From NCBI RefSeq assembly GCF_034259325.1, contig NZ_JAXIVS010000013.1:62001-126000 (forward strand): DNA of 64,000 nucleotides. Reading direction: 5' to 3'. Source of the DNA: Hyalangium ruber. Its GTDB lineage: Bacteria; Myxococcota; Myxococcia; Myxococcales; Myxococcaceae. The notes under the pieces are model-generated. The model searched no databases. It was not told where the DNA came from and saw only the letters and a program-made list of their open reading frames with translations. The position numbers and the translations under genes were made by a program. Positions 48,888 through 57,980 of this stretch are shown here, one piece after another (position 1 is the first letter of the stretch; each line of letters begins with the position of its first letter).

Positions 48888-50234
48888 ATGGCCCCGAGAA
48901 TCCCCGAGAGTTCACGCGCTGTCACTTCCTTAAGAGAGCCAGTGTCGTCTGCGCGGAGCAACGGGGTGAGGGACGCGACAGTCCGGCGGATGGGGGCGGA
49001 GGCGCGGGTCTCGCCGGCGGCGTCCGATTCCTTCGAGGGGGCTGGGGGCGCGCGGCCGCGCGTGGCGCTCGATGGGGCGCCGCAGTCGACGCCGGCTCCG
49101 GTGGATGACGCGGATCCGATGAAGCACATCGCCTATCTGTCCTCGGATGAGCTGAAGGGCCGCGACAGCCCCTCGCAGGAGCTGAGCGCCGCCTCCGCGT
49201 ACGTGGCGCAGTACGCCCAGAAGTACGGCCTGCAGGGTCCCAACACGCTGAACCCGAGCGACCCGTACCACCAGAGCTTCGAGGTGTTCTCCTTCGCGGG
49301 CCCGGCGCGAGAGGCCGCCGCGGGCTCGGAGCATGGCCACGGGGTACACAAGGAGTTCGGGCACGAGGTGTTCCAGGAGGGGTTCTACCTCGACGAGAAC
49401 ATGCCCCCGGAGACGCGGGCGCTGCTCAGCAGCAAGTACGCGGAGACGCTGAAGGCGGCGGGCAGGCCGCTGGCGGAGCGTTCGGGCGAGCCGATGAGCG
49501 TGGAGCAACTGCGGGAAGTGGCACAGTTCGACGGCATGACCCAGAACACCCTGGCCATGCTGCCGGGCACCGGCCCCCACAAGGACGAGGTGATCGTCGT
49601 GATGGCCCACCTGGACCACATCGGCACGGGCCGCAATGGGACCGTCTACAACGGCGCGGACGACAACGCCTCGGGCAGCGCGGTGCTGATGGCCGCCATT
49701 CCAGAGCTCGTCGAGGCGCAGAAGCGCGGCGAGCTGGACCGCTCGGTGCTGTTCCTGTGGACGGGGGCCGAGGAGAAGGGGCTGGTGGGCTCGCAGTACT
49801 TCGTGGACCACCCGATTCCCGGGCTGGGGCTGGAGAACATCTCCGGCGTCATCAACATGGACATGGTCGGCCGGTGGGATGACCAGCGGCTGTCGGTCAT
49901 CGACACGAACTCGCGGGGTAAGGCCAACTACTTCCGGGAAATCGTCGGCGAGGCGAACCAGGAGCTGGCCGATCCGTTCGATCGGCTCAACCAGGACATC
50001 AACGTGTACCGGGACCGGCAGGATGGCGCTGTCTTCTCGCGCAAGGGCGAGGACGTGCTCTTCCTGTTCGAGGGGCTCTCCAACCCCAACGGCGGTGGCG
50101 AGCTGATGCCCGACTACCATGGGCCGGGTGACGACATCGACAAGATCATCCGCGACAACGGGGGCAACAAGCCTCGGCGGGTGAAGGACCTGATGGTTAA
50201 CGTCATCGAGAAAGCGGCCAACCGTTCCGCTTAA
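48888..50234 (+). CDS. M28-family zinc aminopeptidase-like peptidase
   Basis: 448 residues. All M28 zinc ligands and the base are visible: MAHLDHIGTG (His, Asp), NGADDNASGS (bridging Asp), GAEEKGLVGS (catalytic Glu and ligand), VINMDMVGR (Asp) and DYHGPGDD (His). It removes N-terminal residues or similar from peptides. The N-terminal ~75 residues are low-complexity and no clear signal peptide is seen, which is unusual since most M28 enzymes are exported; a later start is possible. It ends in a 4-base overlap with the convergent asparagine synthase operon. Confidence 0.87.
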   Translation: MAPRIPESSRAVTSLREPVSSARSNGVRDATVRRMGAEARVSPAASDSFEGAGGARPRVALDGAPQSTPAPVDDADPMKHIAYLSSDELKGRDSPSQELSAASAYVAQYAQKYGLQGPNTLNPSDPYHQSFEVFSFAGPAREAAAGSEHGHGVHKEFGHEVFQEGFYLDENMPPETRALLSSKYAETLKAAGRPLAERSGEPMSVEQLREVAQFDGMTQNTLAMLPGTGPHKDEVIVVMAHLDHIGTGRNGTVYNGADDNASGSAVLMAAIPELVEAQKRGELDRSVLFLWTGAEEKGLVGSQYFVDHPIPGLGLENISGVINMDMVGRWDDQRLSVIDTNSRGKANYFREIVGEANQELADPFDRLNQDINVYRDRQDGAVFSRKGEDVLFLFEGLSNPNGGGELMPDYHGPGDDIDKIIRDNGGNKPRRVKDLMVNVIEKAANRSA

Positions 50235-51970
50235 GGCGCGAGGACCTTGCGCAGCCAGGCCTCCAGGGTGATCAGCAGCCAGATCTTCACGCCGTGACGC
50301 GGGCGCAGCCCGCCCAGCTTGCCGGACAGGAGGCGCTCCAGCCACCTGCGGTCGAACAACTCCCAGCGCTGGAGCCCGTCGAGGAGGCGTGAGCGGGCTT
50401 CCGGCAGCAGCGGCCCCTGGAACCAGCCCTCCACCGGCACCAGCATGCCGCTCTTGGGGCGGTCGATGATCGCGCGCGGCAGGATGTCCTCCACGGCGCG
50501 CTTGAGCAGGTACTTCTCCACCGAGCCCTTCAGCTTGAACTGAGGCGGAAGCTGGAAGGCCAGCTCCACCACGCCGCGGTCGAACAGGGGCGCGCGCGGG
50601 AGCACCCCGAACGGAGCGCTCACCTCGTCCACCTTGTGGAGGATGTGGTGGGCGCCCTTGAGCGTCAGGTTCAGGGCCTGCAGCTTGCCCACGAAGGTCT
50701 TCCAGCGCGGGTCGGCGAAGAGGGGCGCCAGGGACTCCTCGAGCGGCCGGGCCTCGAGCGCCTGCCTCAGCTTCGGGGAGAGCGCCTGATCGAAGTCATC
50801 GAAGCACTTCTGGTGGGCCCGGAGGTAGCTGCGCTCGCGCGCCAGGGGCTCCTCGTCGCGGATGGACATGTCCCCGTAGAGCTCCGCCAGCAGCATGGGC
50901 AGGTTCTTCGGTCCGCCGAAGCAGGGGTCGCCGCCCTCGCCATTGAGCACCACGCCCACCTGGGTCTCCGCCTCGCGGAAGAGCAGGGCGTTGGGCACGG
51001 TGAGCGGATCGCCGATCGGATCCGAGTGCAGCGCGATCGTCTCGTCCAGGTGGCGGAGGATGACGTTGGGCGCCAGCTCCACGATGTGGTGCTGGGTGCC
51101 GCAGTGCTCGGCCACGAGCGAGCTGAACGGCAGCTCGTTGCGGTACTCCGGGCCGAAGGAGACCGACCAGGTCACCACCTCGTGGTCATGGAGTCGCTTC
51201 GCCAGGGCCACCACGAGGCTGGAGTCGAGCCCCCCGGAGAGGAACGCGCCCACCTTCTCTCCTGGCGGCAGCCTGCGAGAGACGGCGCCCTCCAGCTCGG
51301 CGCGCAGTTGCTGGCGCAGCTCCTCTTCGCGTTCGAGGGCGCGGGCTCCCTCCGCGGCGTCCAGCTCGGGCGGCAAGGACCAGAACCGCTCCTTGCGCAC
51401 CGTCCCGCCGCCCAGCGGCAGGCGCACCTCTTCACCGGCCAGCACCTCTCGGACGCCCTCGACCAGCGTCTCCTCGCCCGGGCTGTACGCATAGCTGAGG
51501 TACGCCGCGATGCCGCGCGGATCGAGCTGTCGCGGGACGAGGCCACTGGCGAGCAGCGCATGGATCGTCGAGGCGAAGATCCATCCCCCCGGAACCTTCG
51601 CGTAGTACAGCGTCCGCTCGCCGATGGCGTCGCGGGTGAGCCGGACCTCACCCTCCACGCGCCGGGCGAGGACGAAGGCGCCATTCACCTCTCCGAGGCG
51701 CCCGGAGGCCGCGAGGCTGCTCCACTGGGAGAGCTCCTCGATCCGCTTGCCCTCCCACCAGCACGCGTCCCAGTCCACGACGAGCGGCGCTCCCGCGTCT
51801 GGGTCGAGCAGCCGCGCCCCTGGCCCCAAGGCGCGCAGGAGCCCTTCGGAGGCGCTCCGGGCCGGGGAGGGGTGTACCAGGCCTCCGATGCGCCCGGACG
51901 GGCGACGGCGGGTCACCCCGGTTCCCAGCGGTGGCCCTGCCACGGGTCTGATCGTCGGTGGCGCCGCCAT
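50231..51970 (-). CDS. Asparagine synthase-like protein 1, glutaminase Cys absent
   Basis: 579 residues from ATG 51970 (MAAPPTIR), last gene of the four-gene operon. The C-terminal synthetase domain is intact: FLSGGLDSSLVVALAKRL (PPi loop) and GEGGDPCFGG. The N-terminal glutaminase domain is degenerate and lacks the Cys2 nucleophile. It cannot use glutamine by the standard path, so it probably works with free ammonia or another amine, as in lasso-peptide cyclases and beta-lactam synthetase. Two bases separate it from the upstream zinc-ribbon gene. Confidence 0.83.
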   Translation of the reverse strand: MAAPPTIRPVAGPPLGTGVTRRRPSGRIGGLVHPSPARSASEGLLRALGPGARLLDPDAGAPLVVDWDACWWEGKRIEELSQWSSLAASGRLGEVNGAFVLARRVEGEVRLTRDAIGERTLYYAKVPGGWIFASTIHALLASGLVPRQLDPRGIAAYLSYAYSPGEETLVEGVREVLAGEEVRLPLGGGTVRKERFWSLPPELDAAEGARALEREEELRQQLRAELEGAVSRRLPPGEKVGAFLSGGLDSSLVVALAKRLHDHEVVTWSVSFGPEYRNELPFSSLVAEHCGTQHHIVELAPNVILRHLDETIALHSDPIGDPLTVPNALLFREAETQVGVVLNGEGGDPCFGGPKNLPMLLAELYGDMSIRDEEPLARERSYLRAHQKCFDDFDQALSPKLRQALEARPLEESLAPLFADPRWKTFVGKLQALNLTLKGAHHILHKVDEVSAPFGVLPRAPLFDRGVVELAFQLPPQFKLKGSVEKYLLKRAVEDILPRAIIDRPKSGMLVPVEGWFQGPLLPEARSRLLDGLQRWELFDRRWLERLLSGKLGGLRPRHGVKIWLLITLEAWLRKVLAP

Positions 51971-51972
51971 GG

Positions 51973-53205
51973 CTACCCGAAGCTGTCCGCGCCGCCGTCC
52001 GAGGCATCCGCGTCGGAGGAGAAGGAGTCGAAGTCCAGCTCGAAGCCCCAACCCTCATCATGACCGCTGGTGTCGTTGGTCGCGGCGGCCTTCTTCTGCT
52101 GCCGCGCCAGCTCTTCTTGCTCCGCCATGGCCATGGCGGGCGTGATGGCGGCGGCCCCGGCGACGGCGGCGGTTCCCCCGGTGGCGCCCGCGCGCAGCCG
52201 GGCTTGCGGGTCCCTCCCTGGCAGCGGAGCGGTGCTGGCCTCCGTGGCCATGACGCGGTTCATGGCGCGAAAGAGCCGCTTGACGATCTGCTCGGGGCGG
52301 ATGACGGCGATCTCGAGCGTGTGGCGCGAGAGCCAGCGGGCCTCTTCGGCGGAGATGCCACCGCCAGGGCCCACCGCTCCGCGCTCGCTCGGCTGGAGCA
52401 GCGCCTTGAAAGGTCCGGCATGCGCGGGCCGCAGCCCCACGTCCACGATGCGGGCCGCCGTTCCTTTGAACCACTCGGGATCGTTGGCGAGGCGGTGCGC
52501 CAGCCGGCACCCCTCGGGGGTGATGTCATGGAGCACGAACACCTCGAGCCGAGGGTTGCGCCGGAGCATGCGGCGCACCGTCTCGAAGGCCTGCTGCGGA
52601 TAGCCGCCGCTGGACAGGACCGCGCAGTTGTTCTCGAAGTGGAAGTTGTTGGCCAGCAGCAGGTCCACCGTGCGGGCGCGATCGCAGATGACCGCCCGGT
52701 CGAAGGAGTAGTCCCCGATATCGGACTCGGGGGTGCGCGCCGGCCGGGTCTCTTGGGGCTTGCGGATGATGACGCCCTTGGGCTTGCCGTGGACCTGTCC
52801 CCAGCGATCCCACATCTTCTCGAACTGTCCCCGAGGGAGCAGGGAGGGCCCAATGCTGCGCACGACGAAGGAGATCACCACCACCGCGGTGGGGATGCTG
52901 ACCAGGAGTGAGGGCGGAAAGATGACGCCAGAGCTGACGACGAGGATGAACAGGAAGAAGAGCGCCAGGGCCTTGCCCGTCGTGCTCTTGTTCCGGCGAG
53001 AGAGCTCGAAGTAGAGGTGCTCCACCCCCCACTTCACCTGGCCCTCCGCGGAGACGAGATCGATCGCCCGCTGGAAGGCCTTGTCGGTCATCTTGTCGCC
53101 CGTGCGTGGCTCGAAGGCGAACGGCTTGTCGCAGCCCGGACAGCGACCGCCGGCGGCCTGTCGCTCGGGGTACTTCGAGTCTTTCTGGCAGCGGATGCAG
53201 ATCAT
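51973..53205 (-). CDS. Zinc-ribbon membrane protein with Toprim-like segment
   Basis: 410 residues from ATG 53205 (MICIRCQKD). An N-terminal zinc ribbon (CIRC and CPGC) and two membrane helices near 95-140 (FFLFILVVSSGVIF and LLVSIPTAVVVISFVV). A middle region (YSFDRAVICDRARTVDLLLA, LEVFVLHDITPEGCRLAHRL) has Toprim-like strand spacing with an Asp and a Gly but no certain match. The C-terminus is acidic (DEGWGFELDFDSF). Its ATG overlaps the stop of the second asparagine synthase (ATGA). It is probably the membrane partner of the operon's enzymes; function unknown. Confidence 0.6.
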   Translation of the reverse strand: MICIRCQKDSKYPERQAAGGRCPGCDKPFAFEPRTGDKMTDKAFQRAIDLVSAEGQVKWGVEHLYFELSRRNKSTTGKALALFFLFILVVSSGVIFPPSLLVSIPTAVVVISFVVRSIGPSLLPRGQFEKMWDRWGQVHGKPKGVIIRKPQETRPARTPESDIGDYSFDRAVICDRARTVDLLLANNFHFENNCAVLSSGGYPQQAFETVRRMLRRNPRLEVFVLHDITPEGCRLAHRLANDPEWFKGTAARIVDVGLRPAHAGPFKALLQPSERGAVGPGGGISAEEARWLSRHTLEIAVIRPEQIVKRLFRAMNRVMATEASTAPLPGRDPQARLRAGATGGTAAVAGAAAITPAMAMAEQEELARQQKKAAATNDTSGHDEGWGFELDFDSFSSDADASDGGADSFG

Positions 53206-54956
53206 GTCGTGCCTCCCTGGCGGCGTCCGCGACCGTCGACGAATACCCGCATCCAGGCCTCCAGCATGGCGAGCGCCCACAGCTTCTCACCGATGCGCCG
53301 GCGTCGGGTCTCATCCGGCTGCCCCTGACCCTGGAGCAGGCGGGTGACGAAGTCCTCCCGGAACATGCCTCGCCGCCGCAGCGACTCGGGCCCGAGCAAC
53401 TTCTGCATCAGGGGCGCTAGGGGGCCCAGCACCCAGTCCGTGGCGGGGACGCTCATGCCGTACTTGCGCCGCCAGACGATCTCGTCGGGCAGCTTGCCCT
53501 GCAGCGCCAGCTTGAGGATGTACTTCTCACAGGCGCCGTGGAGCTTGAGTCGAGGGGGCAGGGCGAAGGACGCCGTGGCCAGGGCGCGATCGAACAGCGG
53601 CACGCGCATGTCCAAGGCCCACGCGTTGGCGATGCGTTCGGCGCGCGGGAGGATGTTCTGCGAGCCCTTGAGCGCGATGTCCGCCAGGCGCACGCGGTTG
53701 AGGAAGTGGGGGATCTCCGGGCTGCCCAGGTACGGGCGCAGGAGCACGCGGCGCTGGCCGGGTCCGCCCACCTGCGCGCGGAACTCCGGGGTGTAGAGCG
53801 CGTCCTCCAGCCCGTAGAAGCGGTGGTAGGAGCGCAGGTAGATCTCCTCTGGCTCCTCCGGAGAGTCCTCGTAGAGGCCACCGTAGACCTCGGCGGCCAC
53901 CATGGGCTTGGAGGTCCACCCGCCGAAGAGCTGATCTCCGCCCTCGCCATTGAAGACGGCCGAGTAGCCCGCCTGCCGCGCGGCCTGGCCCAACAGGAAC
54001 TGTGGTCCGGTCACCGCGTCGCCGAAGGGCAGGTCCAGCTTCCAGGCGAGGTCCATGATCGACGCGCCCACGTCCTCGCCGGAGGCCTTCACCCAGGTGA
54101 GCGGCATCTCCAGCCGATTCGCCACCTGCTCGGCCTGCTCGCGCTCCACGCTGCGCTCGCCGAAGTCGAGGCTGAAGGCGTGGACCTTGACGCCCGCCTC
54201 CCTGAGCCAGACGGCGACGCCCGAGGAGTCGATGCCGCCCGAGAGGTAGAGGGCGACCTCGGGCTCGCCGTTGAGGCGCCGCTCCACCGCCTGCCGGCAG
54301 AGGGCGCGCATGCGCCGCACCGCGGTGGGCTGATCCTCGAGCGCCGGATCGATCTGCTCGCGCAGGGTGAAGTAGGGCGCCGAGGAGAACTGGCCCGCCT
54401 CGAAGACGCCCATGTGGCCGGGCAGCAGCCGCTTCACCCCGCGCAGGGGCACGCTCTCGCCAGGCACGAAGGAGAAGGTGAGGTACTTGTGGATCGCCGC
54501 CGGATCCAGCGTCGGCTCGAAGCCCGGCACGGCGAGCAGTTGCTTCAGCTCGCTGGCGAAGTACAGCACTCCGCCGTGGACCATGTAATAGAGCGAGCGG
54601 ACGCCGAACGGATCCCGCGCCAGCGTCAGTCGCCGTCGTTCCCCGTCCCACCACGCGCCGGCGAAGGCCCCGTCGAGCTCCTCGAGCGCGGAGCCGCCCG
54701 CGGACAGGCGCGAGAGCAGAGCTTCGGTTGGATCGGGCACAGGTGGCGCAAGCGTCCCGGCACAGGCCAGCAGGTGCGGACCCTGGCGGAGGATGGAGGC
54801 GGACTTGCCGGGCCGTCCTCCCCACCAGCGGTAACCGAGCCCCACGCCAGGAGCGTGGACGGTGTCGGTGCTGTCGCCGCGATAGTGGATCGCGCCGAGC
54901 ATGGCGGTGAGGACCTCGGGGGAGGCATCTCCGACGTAGCCGCAGATCCCGCTCAT
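53202..54956 (-). CDS. Asparagine synthase-like protein 2, Cys2 replaced by Ser
   Basis: 584 residues from ATG 54956. It starts MSGICGYVGDA: glutamine-dependent enzymes begin MCGI, so the nucleophile Cys2 is Ser here and the following Cys is at position 5. YLSGGIDSSGVAVW (PPi loop) and FNGEGGDQLFGGW (synthetase) are intact. A paralogue of the gene at 50231, in the same operon. The Ser2 and its neighbour's lost Cys suggest both enzymes share a reaction without glutamine hydrolysis. ATGA overlaps on both sides with the PLP-type gene and the zinc-ribbon gene. Confidence 0.85.
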   Translation of the reverse strand: MSGICGYVGDASPEVLTAMLGAIHYRGDSTDTVHAPGVGLGYRWWGGRPGKSASILRQGPHLLACAGTLAPPVPDPTEALLSRLSAGGSALEELDGAFAGAWWDGERRRLTLARDPFGVRSLYYMVHGGVLYFASELKQLLAVPGFEPTLDPAAIHKYLTFSFVPGESVPLRGVKRLLPGHMGVFEAGQFSSAPYFTLREQIDPALEDQPTAVRRMRALCRQAVERRLNGEPEVALYLSGGIDSSGVAVWLREAGVKVHAFSLDFGERSVEREQAEQVANRLEMPLTWVKASGEDVGASIMDLAWKLDLPFGDAVTGPQFLLGQAARQAGYSAVFNGEGGDQLFGGWTSKPMVAAEVYGGLYEDSPEEPEEIYLRSYHRFYGLEDALYTPEFRAQVGGPGQRRVLLRPYLGSPEIPHFLNRVRLADIALKGSQNILPRAERIANAWALDMRVPLFDRALATASFALPPRLKLHGACEKYILKLALQGKLPDEIVWRRKYGMSVPATDWVLGPLAPLMQKLLGPESLRRRGMFREDFVTRLLQGQGQPDETRRRRIGEKLWALAMLEAWMRVFVDGRGRRQGGTT

Positions 54957-56143
54957 GCATCCACCTGTGTGGCGAGGAGGTCCGCGAAGGTCTCGCGGCG
55001 CGTGGTGAGGATGTCCTGGCCCTGCTCCAGCACCACCTCGGCGGGCCGGGGTCGGTTCAGGAAGTGGCTGGACATGGCGTAGCCGTAGGCGCCGACGTCG
55101 CGCAGGGCGAGGAGATCTCCGGGCGCGAGCGGCGGCAGGCGGCAGTCGCGGGCGAGGAAGTCCCGGGAGTGGGTGGTGTTGCCGCAGACGTCCGTGGGCA
55201 GCTCGAGCGGGGCGCTTCGGGGCGAGAGCGCCTCGACGCGGTGGTGCGGGTAGTAGACGCTCTCCACCACGACGTTGCCCACGGTGGTGTCCACGCCGAT
55301 GTAGCGCCGCCCGCCGCGCTCCTTCACCGAGATGACCTTGACGAGGAGCGAGCCCGCTTCGGCCACGAGGATCCGCCCTGGCTCGACCACCAGGCGGATG
55401 CGCCGGCCCCGGCTCGTGGAGAGCGCTTCCATTCGGCGCGCCACCTCCCGGCCGAGGGTAGGCAGCTCCAGGGGCTCCTGGCCGTCCCGGTAGGGCACGC
55501 CGAAGCCGCCGCCCACGTCGAGCTCCTCCAGATCCGGCAGGAGCGCCGAGGCGGCCACCATCCGCTCGAAGCACGCGAGGAAGCGCTCCAGGGAGCGGTT
55601 GTTGGTGCCCGCGTACATATGGAGGCCTATGAGCCGGACCCCGGCCGCGCGGGCGATGGCGAGGGCCTCGGGAAGCTCGGCGGGATCGACGCCGATGCGG
55701 TTGGGGCGGGAGGGCTCATCCACCAGCAGGCGCAGCCCCACGGCCCCGCCCGGGCTGCGCGCGGCGAAGTCCCGGAGCTGGTCCACCGAGTCGAGGTTGA
55801 GCCGGATTCCGCGCGAGAGGATGTAGTCCAGGTCGGCGGCGTCGAGGTTCGTGCCGCTATAAACGATGCGGTGCGCGGGAACGCCCGCGGAGAGGGCGGC
55901 GAAGGCATCTCCGGGAGTGTTGGCGTGGATCCCCGCGCCCAGGGAGTGCAGCAGTCGCACCAGGTGGCGGTTCTTGTTGCAGACGATGGCGTAGTGGAAG
56001 TCGACCGGTGCGTAGGGAAAGGCCGCGGCGAAGTCCCGATAGGCGGCCCGGACCCGCTCGGCGTCGTAGACGTAGAGCGGGCTGCCGTAACGCTCCACCA
56101 GCAGCGCGGCGCGCTCCGCGCTGGGCTCTCGGACGCTCATCAC
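54953..56143 (-). CDS. Fold-III PLP decarboxylase-like protein lacking the Schiff-base lysine
   Basis: 396 residues. Alanine racemase-fold barrel of the diaminopimelate/ornithine decarboxylase type: YGSPLYVYDAERVRAAY, ELDVGGGFGVPY, RLVVEPGR and DVCGNTTHSRDFL carry the PLP-phosphate and active-site Cys regions. The lysine that should read YAVKAN is Val here (FHYAIVCNKNRHL), with the nearest Lys three residues later. Either that Lys has taken over or the protein does not form the normal aldimine. First gene of the four-gene operon; it may supply or bind the amine used by the asparagine synthase-like enzymes. Confidence 0.8.
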   Translation of the reverse strand: MMSVREPSAERAALLVERYGSPLYVYDAERVRAAYRDFAAAFPYAPVDFHYAIVCNKNRHLVRLLHSLGAGIHANTPGDAFAALSAGVPAHRIVYSGTNLDAADLDYILSRGIRLNLDSVDQLRDFAARSPGGAVGLRLLVDEPSRPNRIGVDPAELPEALAIARAAGVRLIGLHMYAGTNNRSLERFLACFERMVAASALLPDLEELDVGGGFGVPYRDGQEPLELPTLGREVARRMEALSTSRGRRIRLVVEPGRILVAEAGSLLVKVISVKERGGRRYIGVDTTVGNVVVESVYYPHHRVEALSPRSAPLELPTDVCGNTTHSRDFLARDCRLPPLAPGDLLALRDVGAYGYAMSSHFLNRPRPAEVVLEQGQDILTTRRETFADLLATQVDA

Positions 56144-56213: not shown

Positions 56214-57980
56214 CTACTTGTGGATCTCGATGCAGTCGAGCTCCGCGTAGTTGACACCCTTGGTGAGCCGGATCGTGTTCGAGCCCGCGTTCAGGTTCAC
56301 GGCGATGGTCGCCAGGGTCCAGTTGTCCCAGCCCGTCTTGGCGTACGAGAGGGCCGTGCTCGCCCCGCCGTTGACCGACACATAGTGCGAGCTCGTCGCG
56401 GTGCTGCCGTTGGCGAAGCGCACCCGCAGCTGGTAGGCGCCGGCCGAGGGCACTGTCACGTTCCGGAACTCGACCCACGAGTCCGAGAAGTCGATGCCAC
56501 CCACGACGCGCTCGCTCGAGGCACCGCCCACGGCGAAGCGCACCGAGGCCCGATTGAGGGTCGCGTTTTCGGCCTCGTAGCGGTTGAGCTCCACGTAGTC
56601 GAGCTCCGCGTAGCTCGTGCCCTTGGAGAACCGGATCGTGTTGTCCCCGGCCTTCAGGGTGACGAAGGTGGTGGCGCTCGTCCACACGTCCCAGCCCGTG
56701 TGAGGGTAGGTGATGGCCGTGGCGGCGGCCCCGTTGACCGAGACGTTGTGGGTGCTGGGCGCTCCCATGCCATTGGCGAAGCGCACGGTGAGCGCGTACG
56801 CGCCGGCCGACGGCGCCCAGACATTGCGGAACTCCACCCATGAATCCGCGTAGTCGATGTAGCCGACGACCTGGCCATTCGAGGCGCCGCCCACGGCGGT
56901 ACGGGCGGTGGCGTGGTTGATGACCGCCAGCTCGGCCTCGTAGCGGCTCGCGCCGAGCTTCTCGCCCGAGGGCAGCGCCAGCGCCGTGCTGGTGGTGGCG
57001 GGCGTGCCGAAGTTCGGGCTGCCATCGGCGTTCCAGGTGAAGCGCTGCGCGCGGAGGCTGCGTCCGCCCCAACCGCTGCCCGAGGTCTGGTTGGCGTGGT
57101 AGACGAGCCAGTCCTGAGTGCCATCCGGCGACGTGACGAAGGTGTTGTGGCCCGGGCCATAGGCGGTGGCGGTCTTCGAGAAGACACAGCCGTTCGACTT
57201 CGCCCACGAGGACTGCTGCAGGAGGTTGGCCGTGCTGGAGGCCGCCAACATCCCGAGGCAGTAGTCATCCGTCCAGCTGCCGCTGGCCGAGTAGATGATG
57301 AAGATCTTCCCGTTGCGCTGGAGCACCTGCGGCCCCTCGTTGATGTAGGGCGGGCCGCCGAGGCGCTCCCAGGTGCCGAGGGGCGAGGAGATGAGCACCC
57401 GCTCCCCGCTGATCGTGTACGGGTTGCTCATGGGCGCGATGTAGAGGTTCTGCTGGATGTTGGTGAAGCCGTCCCAGCCGGACCAGAGGAAGTAGAGCGA
57501 GGCGCCCACCTGCAGGACGGTGCCGTCGATGGCCCAGCGATCCGTGGGCGCGGAGATCTTCCCCTTGAGCGTGTAGCTGCCCTGCGGGTCGGTGCCGGTG
57601 CTCTCCAGCACGTACATGCGGTGGTTGTCGTTGTTGCCGTCGTCGGCCGCGAAGTAGATGTAGAAGCGGCCATTGAGAAACAGCAACTCCGGCGCCCAGA
57701 CTCCGCAGCAGAGGGCGCCCGTGTTGGAGGGTCGGGTCCACACGGTGACCCGGTTGCCCGAGGCCAGCCCCGTCAGCGTGCGCGACTTGGTGATCGCGAT
57801 GGCCGTGTCGGAGTTGATGCTCTGCACCAGGTAGTAATAGCCGTTGTACTGGACGATGGAGGGGTCCTGCCCCGCCGCGACGATGGGGTTGTAGAACGTC
57901 TGGGCGGAGGCCACGCTCGCCAGTAGCAGCAAGGCGGTGAGCAGGGGGAACCGCAGGACTGCGAGGATGGGGGAGTGCAT
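56214..57980 (-). CDS. Secreted GH43 arabinanase-like enzyme with two CBM35-like modules
   Basis: 588 residues. Signal peptide (LLTALLLLASVASA). Five-bladed propeller of GH43: the catalytic Asp in AAGQDPSIVQ, the transition-state Asp in RWAIDGTVLQ and the acid Glu in PYINEGPQVLQ. Two tandem CBM35/CBM6-like modules of ~120 residues follow (YEAELAVINHATAR and YEAENATLNRASVR), each ending in a LDYVEL- or LDCIEI-type strand. It probably cuts alpha-1,5-arabinan or related plant polysaccharide outside the cell. A 148-base gap separates it from the divergent pyrophosphorylase. Confidence 0.88.
   Translation of the reverse strand: MHSPILAVLRFPLLTALLLLASVASAQTFYNPIVAAGQDPSIVQYNGYYYLVQSINSDTAIAITKSRTLTGLASGNRVTVWTRPSNTGALCCGVWAPELLFLNGRFYIYFAADDGNNDNHRMYVLESTGTDPQGSYTLKGKISAPTDRWAIDGTVLQVGASLYFLWSGWDGFTNIQQNLYIAPMSNPYTISGERVLISSPLGTWERLGGPPYINEGPQVLQRNGKIFIIYSASGSWTDDYCLGMLAASSTANLLQQSSWAKSNGCVFSKTATAYGPGHNTFVTSPDGTQDWLVYHANQTSGSGWGGRSLRAQRFTWNADGSPNFGTPATTSTALALPSGEKLGASRYEAELAVINHATARTAVGGASNGQVVGYIDYADSWVEFRNVWAPSAGAYALTVRFANGMGAPSTHNVSVNGAAATAITYPHTGWDVWTSATTFVTLKAGDNTIRFSKGTSYAELDYVELNRYEAENATLNRASVRFAVGGASSERVVGGIDFSDSWVEFRNVTVPSAGAYQLRVRFANGSTATSSHYVSVNGGASTALSYAKTGWDNWTLATIAVNLNAGSNTIRLTKGVNYAELDCIEIHK

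Follow-up and report, generated by a model that had tools for sequence, protein, structure and literature searches.

Glutaminase-dead asparagine synthetase homologues are genetically tied to a Toprim partner that usually ends in Phe-Gly: a possible protein-terminus ligation system

We analyzed a window of 64,000 nucleotides from the genome of Hyalangium ruber (contig NZ_JAXIVS010000013.1, positions 62,001 to 126,000 of the forward strand) and focused on an operon of four genes at 50231-56143 of the window, all on the minus strand. An earlier note on this DNA had described the operon as encoding two asparagine synthetases that lack the N-terminal glutaminase nucleophile (Cys2), a pyridoxal phosphate (PLP)-fold protein without its lysine, and a zinc-ribbon membrane protein, and this description was borne out. 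In the order of transcription, the genes encode a LysA-fold (type III PLP fold) protein of 395 residues (54953..56140 from an ATG start; a GTG one codon earlier would put the start at 56143), the synthetase homologue AsnB1 of 584 residues (53202..54956), a zinc-ribbon/membrane/Toprim-like protein of 410 residues that ends in DSFG (51973..53205; hereafter the partner), and the synthetase homologue AsnB2 of 579 residues with a vestigial N-terminal domain (50231..51970). Successive genes are joined by a 4-base overlap, another 4-base overlap and then a 2-base gap. In Pfam, both AsnBs lie far over the cut-off as Asn_synthase and the LysA-fold protein matches the ornithine/diaminopimelate/arginine decarboxylase families; none of the four proteins reaches the cut-off of any NCBIfam model. 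The same genome also encodes an AsnB of the canonical kind, which has Cys2 (L001), and a LysA that keeps the PLP lysine (L048). Comparison across genomes showed that AsnBs with a dead glutaminase and an intact ATP-pyrophosphatase are genetically tied to a Toprim partner whose C-terminus is usually Phe-Gly.

AsnB1 has lost its glutaminase residues and begins MSGICG, with serine in second position, and AsnB2 has no cysteine near its start. The PP-loop is intact in both, as SGGIDSS in AsnB1 (54222-54242, minus strand) and SGGLDSS in AsnB2 (51218-51238, minus strand). We tabulated residues for 50 of the 55 AsnBs found beside Toprim proteins (the module AsnBs) and for 19 canonical AsnBs; six of the 25 canonical sequences gathered were dropped (four without a clean N-terminus, one duplicate and one over-long), as was an AsnB fragment at L116, and some AsnB2 start codons are uncertain. 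Cys2 is present in 19/19 canonical and 0/50 module AsnBs, with the column in the latter holding another residue (46), a gap (3) or an internal cysteine (1, in a Gloeothece protein starting MRKRK); the four AsnBs of L190-L193 do not start MCG either. Among glutamine-site residues, Asn is kept in 0/50, Arg in 1/50 and Glu in 1/50, and a fourth, Asp, in 10/50, within a poorly aligned region. The PP-loop SGGxDS, the GEGxD motif and the lysine of RxKxG are kept in 50/50. AsnB enzymes activate carboxylates with ATP. With the glutaminase residues lost and those of the ATP-pyrophosphatase kept, the module AsnBs should, judging from these residues, adenylate a carboxylate without hydrolyzing glutamine, which supports the suggestion in the earlier note that the acceptor would be something other than glutamine-derived ammonia.

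A quick maximum-likelihood tree of 59 rows (from 76 gathered) separated module AsnBs (41) from canonical AsnBs (18) with a support of 100. In this tree, the first Gloeothece AsnB groups with AsnB1, and the second groups, like the Streptomyces AsnB, with AsnB2; the AsnB1/AsnB2 split is therefore old. The two operon AsnBs score 213.8 and 230.1 bits against the AsnB-type synthetase domain PF00733 (cut-off 21), and 237.8 and 208.9 against asparagine synthetase B, TIGR01536, below its cut-off of 267.1. Their closest solved sequences are the hydroxyamidotransferase 7ylz, asparagine synthetases and beta-lactam synthetase, and each AsnB profile matches seven PDB sequences, 1jgt and 1q15 among them. 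Since NCBIfam ranks asparagine synthase, the XrtA amidotransferase and the NAGGN amidotransferase highest, the operon might be taken for a cluster of the ordinary kind, for asparagine or exopolysaccharide amidation, some members of which have decayed, and a 43-codon gene annotated as a PEP-CTERM sorting domain protein does lie about 0.9 kb upstream of a Gloeothece AsnB (L148:4592-4720). However, the scores all fall under the family cut-offs, the pattern of residue loss is uniform and ancient, not scattered, and the arrangement is kept across phyla, so that this explanation is already disfavoured and, in our estimate, highly improbable.

The partner is a composite protein, with all features on the minus strand. 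Its zinc ribbon (53101..53205) has cysteines C3, C6, C22 and C25, invariant in 13/13 aligned rows. A hydrophobic helical hairpin follows at residues 77-117 (52855..52977), with helices at 77-91 and 97-117 in the structure model and hydropathy peaks at 79-97 and 104-122, then a Toprim-like core at residues 166-246 with VICD, GYP and HDxxPxG motifs (52468..52710), a weakly predicted linker at residues 327-406 (51988..52227), and the C-terminal tail DSFG (51976..51987). The model (mean predicted local distance difference test score, pLDDT, 77.2; predicted template modelling score 0.72) contains the same succession of parts, with pLDDT below 50 at residues 327-355, 378-384 and 399-410. The best Foldseek match is topoisomerase VI A (probability 1.00, E 0.022, with none below 0.001). 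VIA-align gave Z scores of 11.0 (9o0g, 160 aligned, root-mean-square deviation 4.5), 10.7 (1d3y), 9.0 (JetD 7til) and 7.3 (Spo11 8urq); the nine best rows (Z 7.3 to 11.0) are topoisomerase VI A, JetD, a C. glutamicum nuclease and Spo11, and unrelated rows score lower. As modelled, then, the partner's C-terminal half is a Toprim fold of the topoisomerase VI-A/Spo11/JetD class. Sequence comparison gave only sub-threshold Pfam matches, the topoisomerase VI A/Spo11 Toprim domain among them (PF21180: 16.1 for P0003 and 20.4 for L079, cut-off 24.1), and the partner's sequence profile matched no PDB chain. The Toprim catalytic residues appear altered, with Asp at the place of Glu and HDx at that of DxD in 13/13 type I rows (defined below; assignment by eye), and as invariant VICD-type, GYP and HD residues occupy these places, nuclease activity is doubtful. 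The predicted Toprim fold, the loss of glutamine-site residues and the conserved D-x-F-G tail all go beyond what the earlier note had recorded.

The observed gene neighborhoods indicate that the synthetases and the partner form a module. A scan of species genomes with AsnB1 yielded 15 loci, 14 of them close (62-89% identity) and one a distant ordinary AsnB (L025). The record labels of the close loci are Myxococcaceae, Planctomycetia, Acidobacteria, and Beta-, Gamma- and Deltaproteobacteria, several labels of metagenome-assembled genomes (MAGs) being doubtful. In 13 of these 14, the genes for AsnB1, the zinc-ribbon protein and AsnB2 directly follow one another, and the remaining locus (L022) is cut off by the contig end; this constancy places the module beyond chance. 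The LysA-fold gene lies upstream in 5/14, with a small gene in between in L013. Taking all loci in which an AsnB adjoins a Toprim protein, we counted 35 loci with 55 AsnBs and 38 Toprim proteins, ranging by record label from Myxococcota to Cyanobacteriota and Actinomycetota. Several loci stand outside this count: three are cut by contig ends (L022 before the partner, L081 within the partner's end, and L115, which starts inside the cluster), the L080 stretch has no AsnB, L085, L086 and L117 are weak and without AsnB, L087 and L187 are topoisomerase VI-like, and L025 is the ordinary AsnB; the weak matches L010, L178-L183, L188 and L189 were left out of the analysis. The earlier note had held that Cys2-bearing close homologues and the lack of a conserved neighborhood would speak against it; the 50 module AsnBs tabulated all lack an N-terminal Cys2, and the AsnB-Toprim pair is kept at 35 loci. 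Not all four genes are constant, the LysA-fold gene being an accessory found at 8/35 loci.

The distribution of the module is patchy. The zinc-ribbon/Toprim protein occurs in 2/195 Myxococcota genomes, H. ruber included, and in 2/399 genomes of the order of one betaproteobacterial host, both being loci found previously. In the class of L019's genome it was found in 14/289 genomes, and with a second model in 20/317 (weak matches counted), and in the phyla of L013's and L012's genomes in 9/347 and 6/343, three matches being strong in each. A search of plasmid proteins located the module on plasmid Cy782202 of Gloeothece verrucosa PCC 7822 (L148) and on a plasmid of Streptomyces sp. NBC_01237 (L149). 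Its presence in plasmid records of two named isolates argues that it is not a binning artefact. Phages gave no module match, and a scan of viral contigs with two short patterns gave none that was confirmed.

Several layouts can be distinguished among the loci. Type I, that of H. ruber, is AsnB1-Toprim-AsnB2. Type II has a Toprim protein, with a zinc ribbon in most, and a single AsnB (L078, L079, L082-L084, L192, L193), whereas in type III the Toprim protein is shorter, lacks the zinc ribbon and is likewise accompanied by a single AsnB (L110-L114 and a second set in L077). In a cyanobacterial-like layout an AsnB is convergent to the Toprim gene: on Cy782202, AsnB, LysA-fold and Toprim genes stand in a row with the second AsnB convergent, and L190 and L191 share the layout with one AsnB found. 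The Streptomyces variant has three Toprim copies. L116:1-2304, with an AsnB fragment at the contig start, a divergent Toprim protein and a cupin, is possibly a fourth locus type. Type III also bears on the site of action. The earlier note had placed the modification at the membrane, which is not general because the type III partners checked (4 of 6) have no hydrophobic segment; a membrane-only reading was dropped for the same reason.

Accessory genes vary among the fetched stretches of the 35 loci. A LysA-fold gene is present at 8, a two-cupin protein at 13 and a small membrane protein at 6. LysA-fold and cupin genes never share a stretch (for independent loci, no overlap would have a chance of 0.014, but the loci are not independent), and the LysA-fold gene is confined to two-AsnB loci (8/8). 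Two-cupin genes lie, for example, at L012:3682-4368, L074:12314-13006, L111:7120-7782, L112:6475-7149, L113:6953-7624 and L192:7281-7952. The small membrane protein, with a VYYRVTL..HC-type domain, is encoded at L012:4365-4835, L013:8542-8976, L020:8447-9004, L075:11340-11927, L076:8404-8985 (weak) and L148:4827-5450, and in two cases scanned reached no Pfam cut-off.

The partner's C-terminus is conserved to the last residue. Exact Phe-Gly (FG) ends are found in 33 of the 38 AsnB-linked Toprim proteins, that of H. ruber counted, with Ser, Gly, Asp, Ala, Asn or Thr at position -3 and Asp at position -4 in 19/33. Most type I and II members carry the tail glycine on a flexible linker. In type I proteins, 18 to 114 residues separate an RPEQ motif from the C-terminus while the FG end stays fixed, and the L020 protein, which has nearly no linker, still ends HDSFG. 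FG-ended proteins include distant ones that are only 22-29% identical over their length to the H. ruber partner. When all six-frame open reading frames (ORFs) of at least 60 codons were taken from 43 stretches, 37/3697 ended FG, and these were the 33 AsnB-linked Toprim proteins, the L080 protein, one Streptomyces protein and two unrelated frames. A rougher gene call gave 19 FG-ended genes out of 498, all 19 being Toprim members. As for ascertainment, the first 14 loci were found via AsnB1, and 17 later AsnB-linked loci (L078, L079, L082-L084, L110-L114, L116, L148, L149, L190-L193) via matches that stop short of the tail; 15 of these 17 have an FG-ended Toprim protein.

One of the two exceptions, L116, has no tail, and the other, L149, carries FG on a separate protein. 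On this Streptomyces plasmid, a stand-alone protein of 179 residues with a DDDFG end is encoded between three tandem Toprim genes and AsnB (L149:9830-10369); it has a different N-terminal part, a hydrophobic helix and a Gly/Ser/Asp linker. The three Toprim copies there have no FG end and carry a GF[LM][ST]WP motif near their ends. Outside the AsnB-linked set, the L080 protein has the tail with no AsnB adjacent, the L079 set lying in the same genome, and L085 and L086 are without tail, an AsnB-type search of their genomes giving only other AsnB-type matches. At L016:6716-7866 the Toprim reading frame is broken in a MAG, and the final piece still ends GFG.

Two other accounts of the tail were rejected. 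Low-complexity sequence is absent from the tails of L148, L190, L193 and type III, so the tail is not a low-complexity artefact. A general sorting signal was considered by scanning the H. ruber genome: a degenerate DGGxDxFG-stop pattern matched the operon gene alone, and a looser DxFG pattern gave 19 matches against 38 in the control, 9 of them with a true stop codon. The other 8 DxFG-stop matches do not resemble gene ends in frame length or codon-position GC content, the least certain being a 43-codon frame at L159. The DxFG form, the one scanned, is thus unique to the operon gene in this genome.

Taken together, these patterns suggest a working interpretation, drawn from sequence comparison, in which the module may be a protein-terminus ligation system whose AsnB joins the partner's tail to an amine; we put this at a little short of an even chance. 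AsnBs activate carboxylates, and nothing at the partner's end is kept as strictly as the glycine with its free carboxylate, which makes the tail as substrate the simplest reading and the Phe-Gly C-terminus the likely carboxylate donor. The partner would offer its flexible tail at the active site of AsnB, which would adenylate the C-terminal glycine carboxylate with ATP, and an amine would attack the adenylated glycine to form an amide. Candidates for this amine are small molecules, a target protein's lysine and an internal amine, ammonia from glutamine being unlikely. In type I loci, the conserved gene order suggests that the two diverged AsnBs probably act as a pair, and the Lys-less LysA-fold protein, or the cupin at other loci, would probably supply, bind or finish the amine part. 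Whether in the partner or, in Streptomyces, in the separate tail protein, Phe-Gly could plausibly be adenylated and coupled in this way as an AsnB-based conjugation independent of E1 enzymes and PafA, a proposal that we hold tentatively.

Several observations weigh against ligation of the tail. Five of the 38 AsnB-linked Toprim proteins lack it (L077a, L116 and the three Streptomyces copies). L077a is tail-less despite an AsnB alongside, with a second, FG-ended copy in the same cluster, and the L116 protein ends SGLQ in a stretch with no FG-ended ORF, where the contig begins inside AsnB. Homology among the loci makes all of the counts non-independent, and a motif at a C-terminus could just as well serve for docking. 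This last point underlies the strongest rival, which we consider possible but somewhat unlikely: the tail may bind non-covalently, as a docking or regulatory peptide by which AsnB is recruited or gated, while the AsnBs make a small-molecule amide, the LysA-fold protein or cupin handles the substrate, and the Toprim protein serves as scaffold or sensor. C-terminal motifs do often dock, the AsnB relatives beta-lactam synthetase and CarA act on small molecules, and the LysA-fold and cupin accessories are of metabolic type. Yet the final glycine follows Phe in distant and close partners alike, a terminal residue is in our judgement seldom so strictly needed by docking motifs, and no small-molecule pathway gene is common to all loci.

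In the LysA-fold protein, Val53 stands at the place of the diaminopimelate decarboxylase PLP lysine, within HYAIVCNKN (about 55970-55996, minus strand), and Val holds this position in 8/8 module LysA-fold proteins, as against Lys in 17/17 decarboxylase-family relatives from module-bearing genomes (those with E < 1e-20; weaker matches were left out). The catalytic Cys-Glu pair is replaced by Thr-His, or by Thr-Tyr in Gloeothece, and the GGGxG (GGGFG in H. ruber), EPGR (EPGG in L023) and GAYG motifs are kept. Lys56, three residues on from Val53, was considered as a moved PLP lysine and rejected as a general replacement, being Gly in the Gloeothece protein. The protein scores 263.1 against the diaminopimelate decarboxylase model TIGR01048, under the cut-off of 297.9. 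Judged by its residues, it is not a classical decarboxylase; its structure model is of low confidence (mean pLDDT 68.9) and was not used. The close form was found in 6 of the 15 module-bearing genomes searched, always beside the module. Its restriction to two-AsnB loci, with the old divergence of AsnB1 and AsnB2, would fit an amino-group-carrier logic in which one AsnB loads a small amine on the tail, the LysA-fold protein or cupin alters it, and the second AsnB releases or amidates it. LysW likewise couples a zinc ribbon with an acidic C-terminal tail. The LysA-family relative BtrK is named in its PDB title as a carrier-protein-bound decarboxylase. This scheme is nevertheless doubtful, because two or more AsnBs occur at 19 loci and 11 of these show no LysA-fold gene within the stretch, because we recognised no enzyme for the release step, and because the LysA-fold protein itself lacks the catalytic lysine.

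Patchy distribution, carriage on two plasmids, the JetD/Spo11-class Toprim fold and a parallel with Cap9 and QatC (PMC13279940) raise the prospect of a conflict or anti-phage system with a Toprim effector armed by AsnB-mediated tail modification. We think this improbable. PADLOC-DB, queried with seven module proteins, returned as its sole match a QueC PP-loop fragment (P0002, 28.3 bits, residues 232-292) and no Qat or CBASS (cyclic oligonucleotide-based antiphage signaling system) genes, with no search beyond that; the neighbors, judged by eye and not run against PADLOC, do not look defence-like; and the Toprim metal residues look altered by eye (E to D, DxD to HDx).

The neighborhoods contain other genes that we record here. 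Six betaproteobacterial loci (L014-L018, L022) have related TctC/Bug-type solute-binding genes directly upstream of AsnB1, often in several copies (one was scanned with Pfam). Near type III loci lie large, related, secreted-looking proteins (L077:12150-14015, L110:12926-14000, L111:4319-7000, L112:4366-6336, L113:4846-6900), of which the one scanned shows a MopE-type metal-binding motif at the Pfam cut-off. Beside the type III gene set of L110, the stretch L110:8538-10720 encodes, as read by eye from the translation, an asparaginase-like protein and a second PP-loop (GGADSS) protein. In the window itself, a glycoside hydrolase-like gene with carbohydrate-binding repeats (by eye) lies on the same strand just upstream of the operon (56214-57980) and has no relative in loci L011-L025.

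If the tail is the substrate, the module would represent a new chemistry for protein-end modification, built on a well-known amide-forming fold and spread over several phyla of bacteria. Few protein-conjugation systems are listed for bacteria, and this one would add to them; it would also assign a role to Toprim and Lys-less LysA-fold proteins now annotated as hypothetical or as decarboxylases.

Each part of the module has recognizable relatives. The partner's C-terminal half would share its fold with topoisomerase VI A, Spo11 and JetD, unlike which it has altered Toprim metal residues together with a zinc ribbon, a membrane hairpin and the FG tail. The LysA-fold protein has the fold and most PLP-pocket motifs of LysA but differs in the Val and Thr-His/Tyr replacements described above. 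The earlier note had drawn parallels with lasso-peptide and beta-lactam pathways, and these fit in chemistry and no further. The lasso peptide cyclase (McjC type) is likewise an AsnB homologue that makes an amide on a peptide and whose synthetase half is intact, yet the operon AsnBs score 141.6 and 110.8 against NF033535 (cut-off 525). Beta-lactam synthetase and CarA also combine a vestigial glutaminase half with an intact adenylating half, but the module has a separate conserved partner protein. The NAGGN amidotransferase (TIGR03104: 192.1 and 221.7, cut-off 570.1) and XrtA amidotransferase (TIGR03108: 227.2 and 219.3, cut-off 816.9) are among the best-scoring AsnB-type families, from which the module differs by its dead glutaminase. 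An AsnB accompanied by a LysA-fold protein, the TIGR03099 decarboxylase (score 136.5), is found in the XrtA set as well.

As the earlier note had surmised, the system appears undescribed: in open-access PubMed Central, no paper was found with "asparagine synthetase" and "toprim", nor with "zinc ribbon" added, and no title or abstract opening among the papers listed describes an AsnB-Toprim system. The folds themselves are known; none of the described systems tested has this combination of them, the tail or a Lys-less LysA-fold protein. By analogy, a close precedent in logic would be the QueC family, whose members are likewise PP-loop enzymes. According to PMC13279940, the QueC homologue Cap9 (type IV CBASS) attaches a nucleobase to the glycine at a protein's N-terminus, and defence by qatABCD depends on active-site residues of QatC and on a flexible tail of QatB that ends in glycine. 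Both, like the module, combine an ATP-pyrophosphatase-fold enzyme with a partner bearing a flexible tail that ends in a conserved glycine. The module differs in having the AsnB family rather than QueC, a conserved C-terminal rather than N-terminal glycine, and a Toprim partner; in type I, 0/13 aligned partners start Met-Gly, all beginning instead with an M-x-C zinc ribbon. Conjugation at the Phe-Gly tail could thus be viewed, again tentatively and by analogy, as a C-terminal counterpart to the N-terminal glycine modification of the QueC family.

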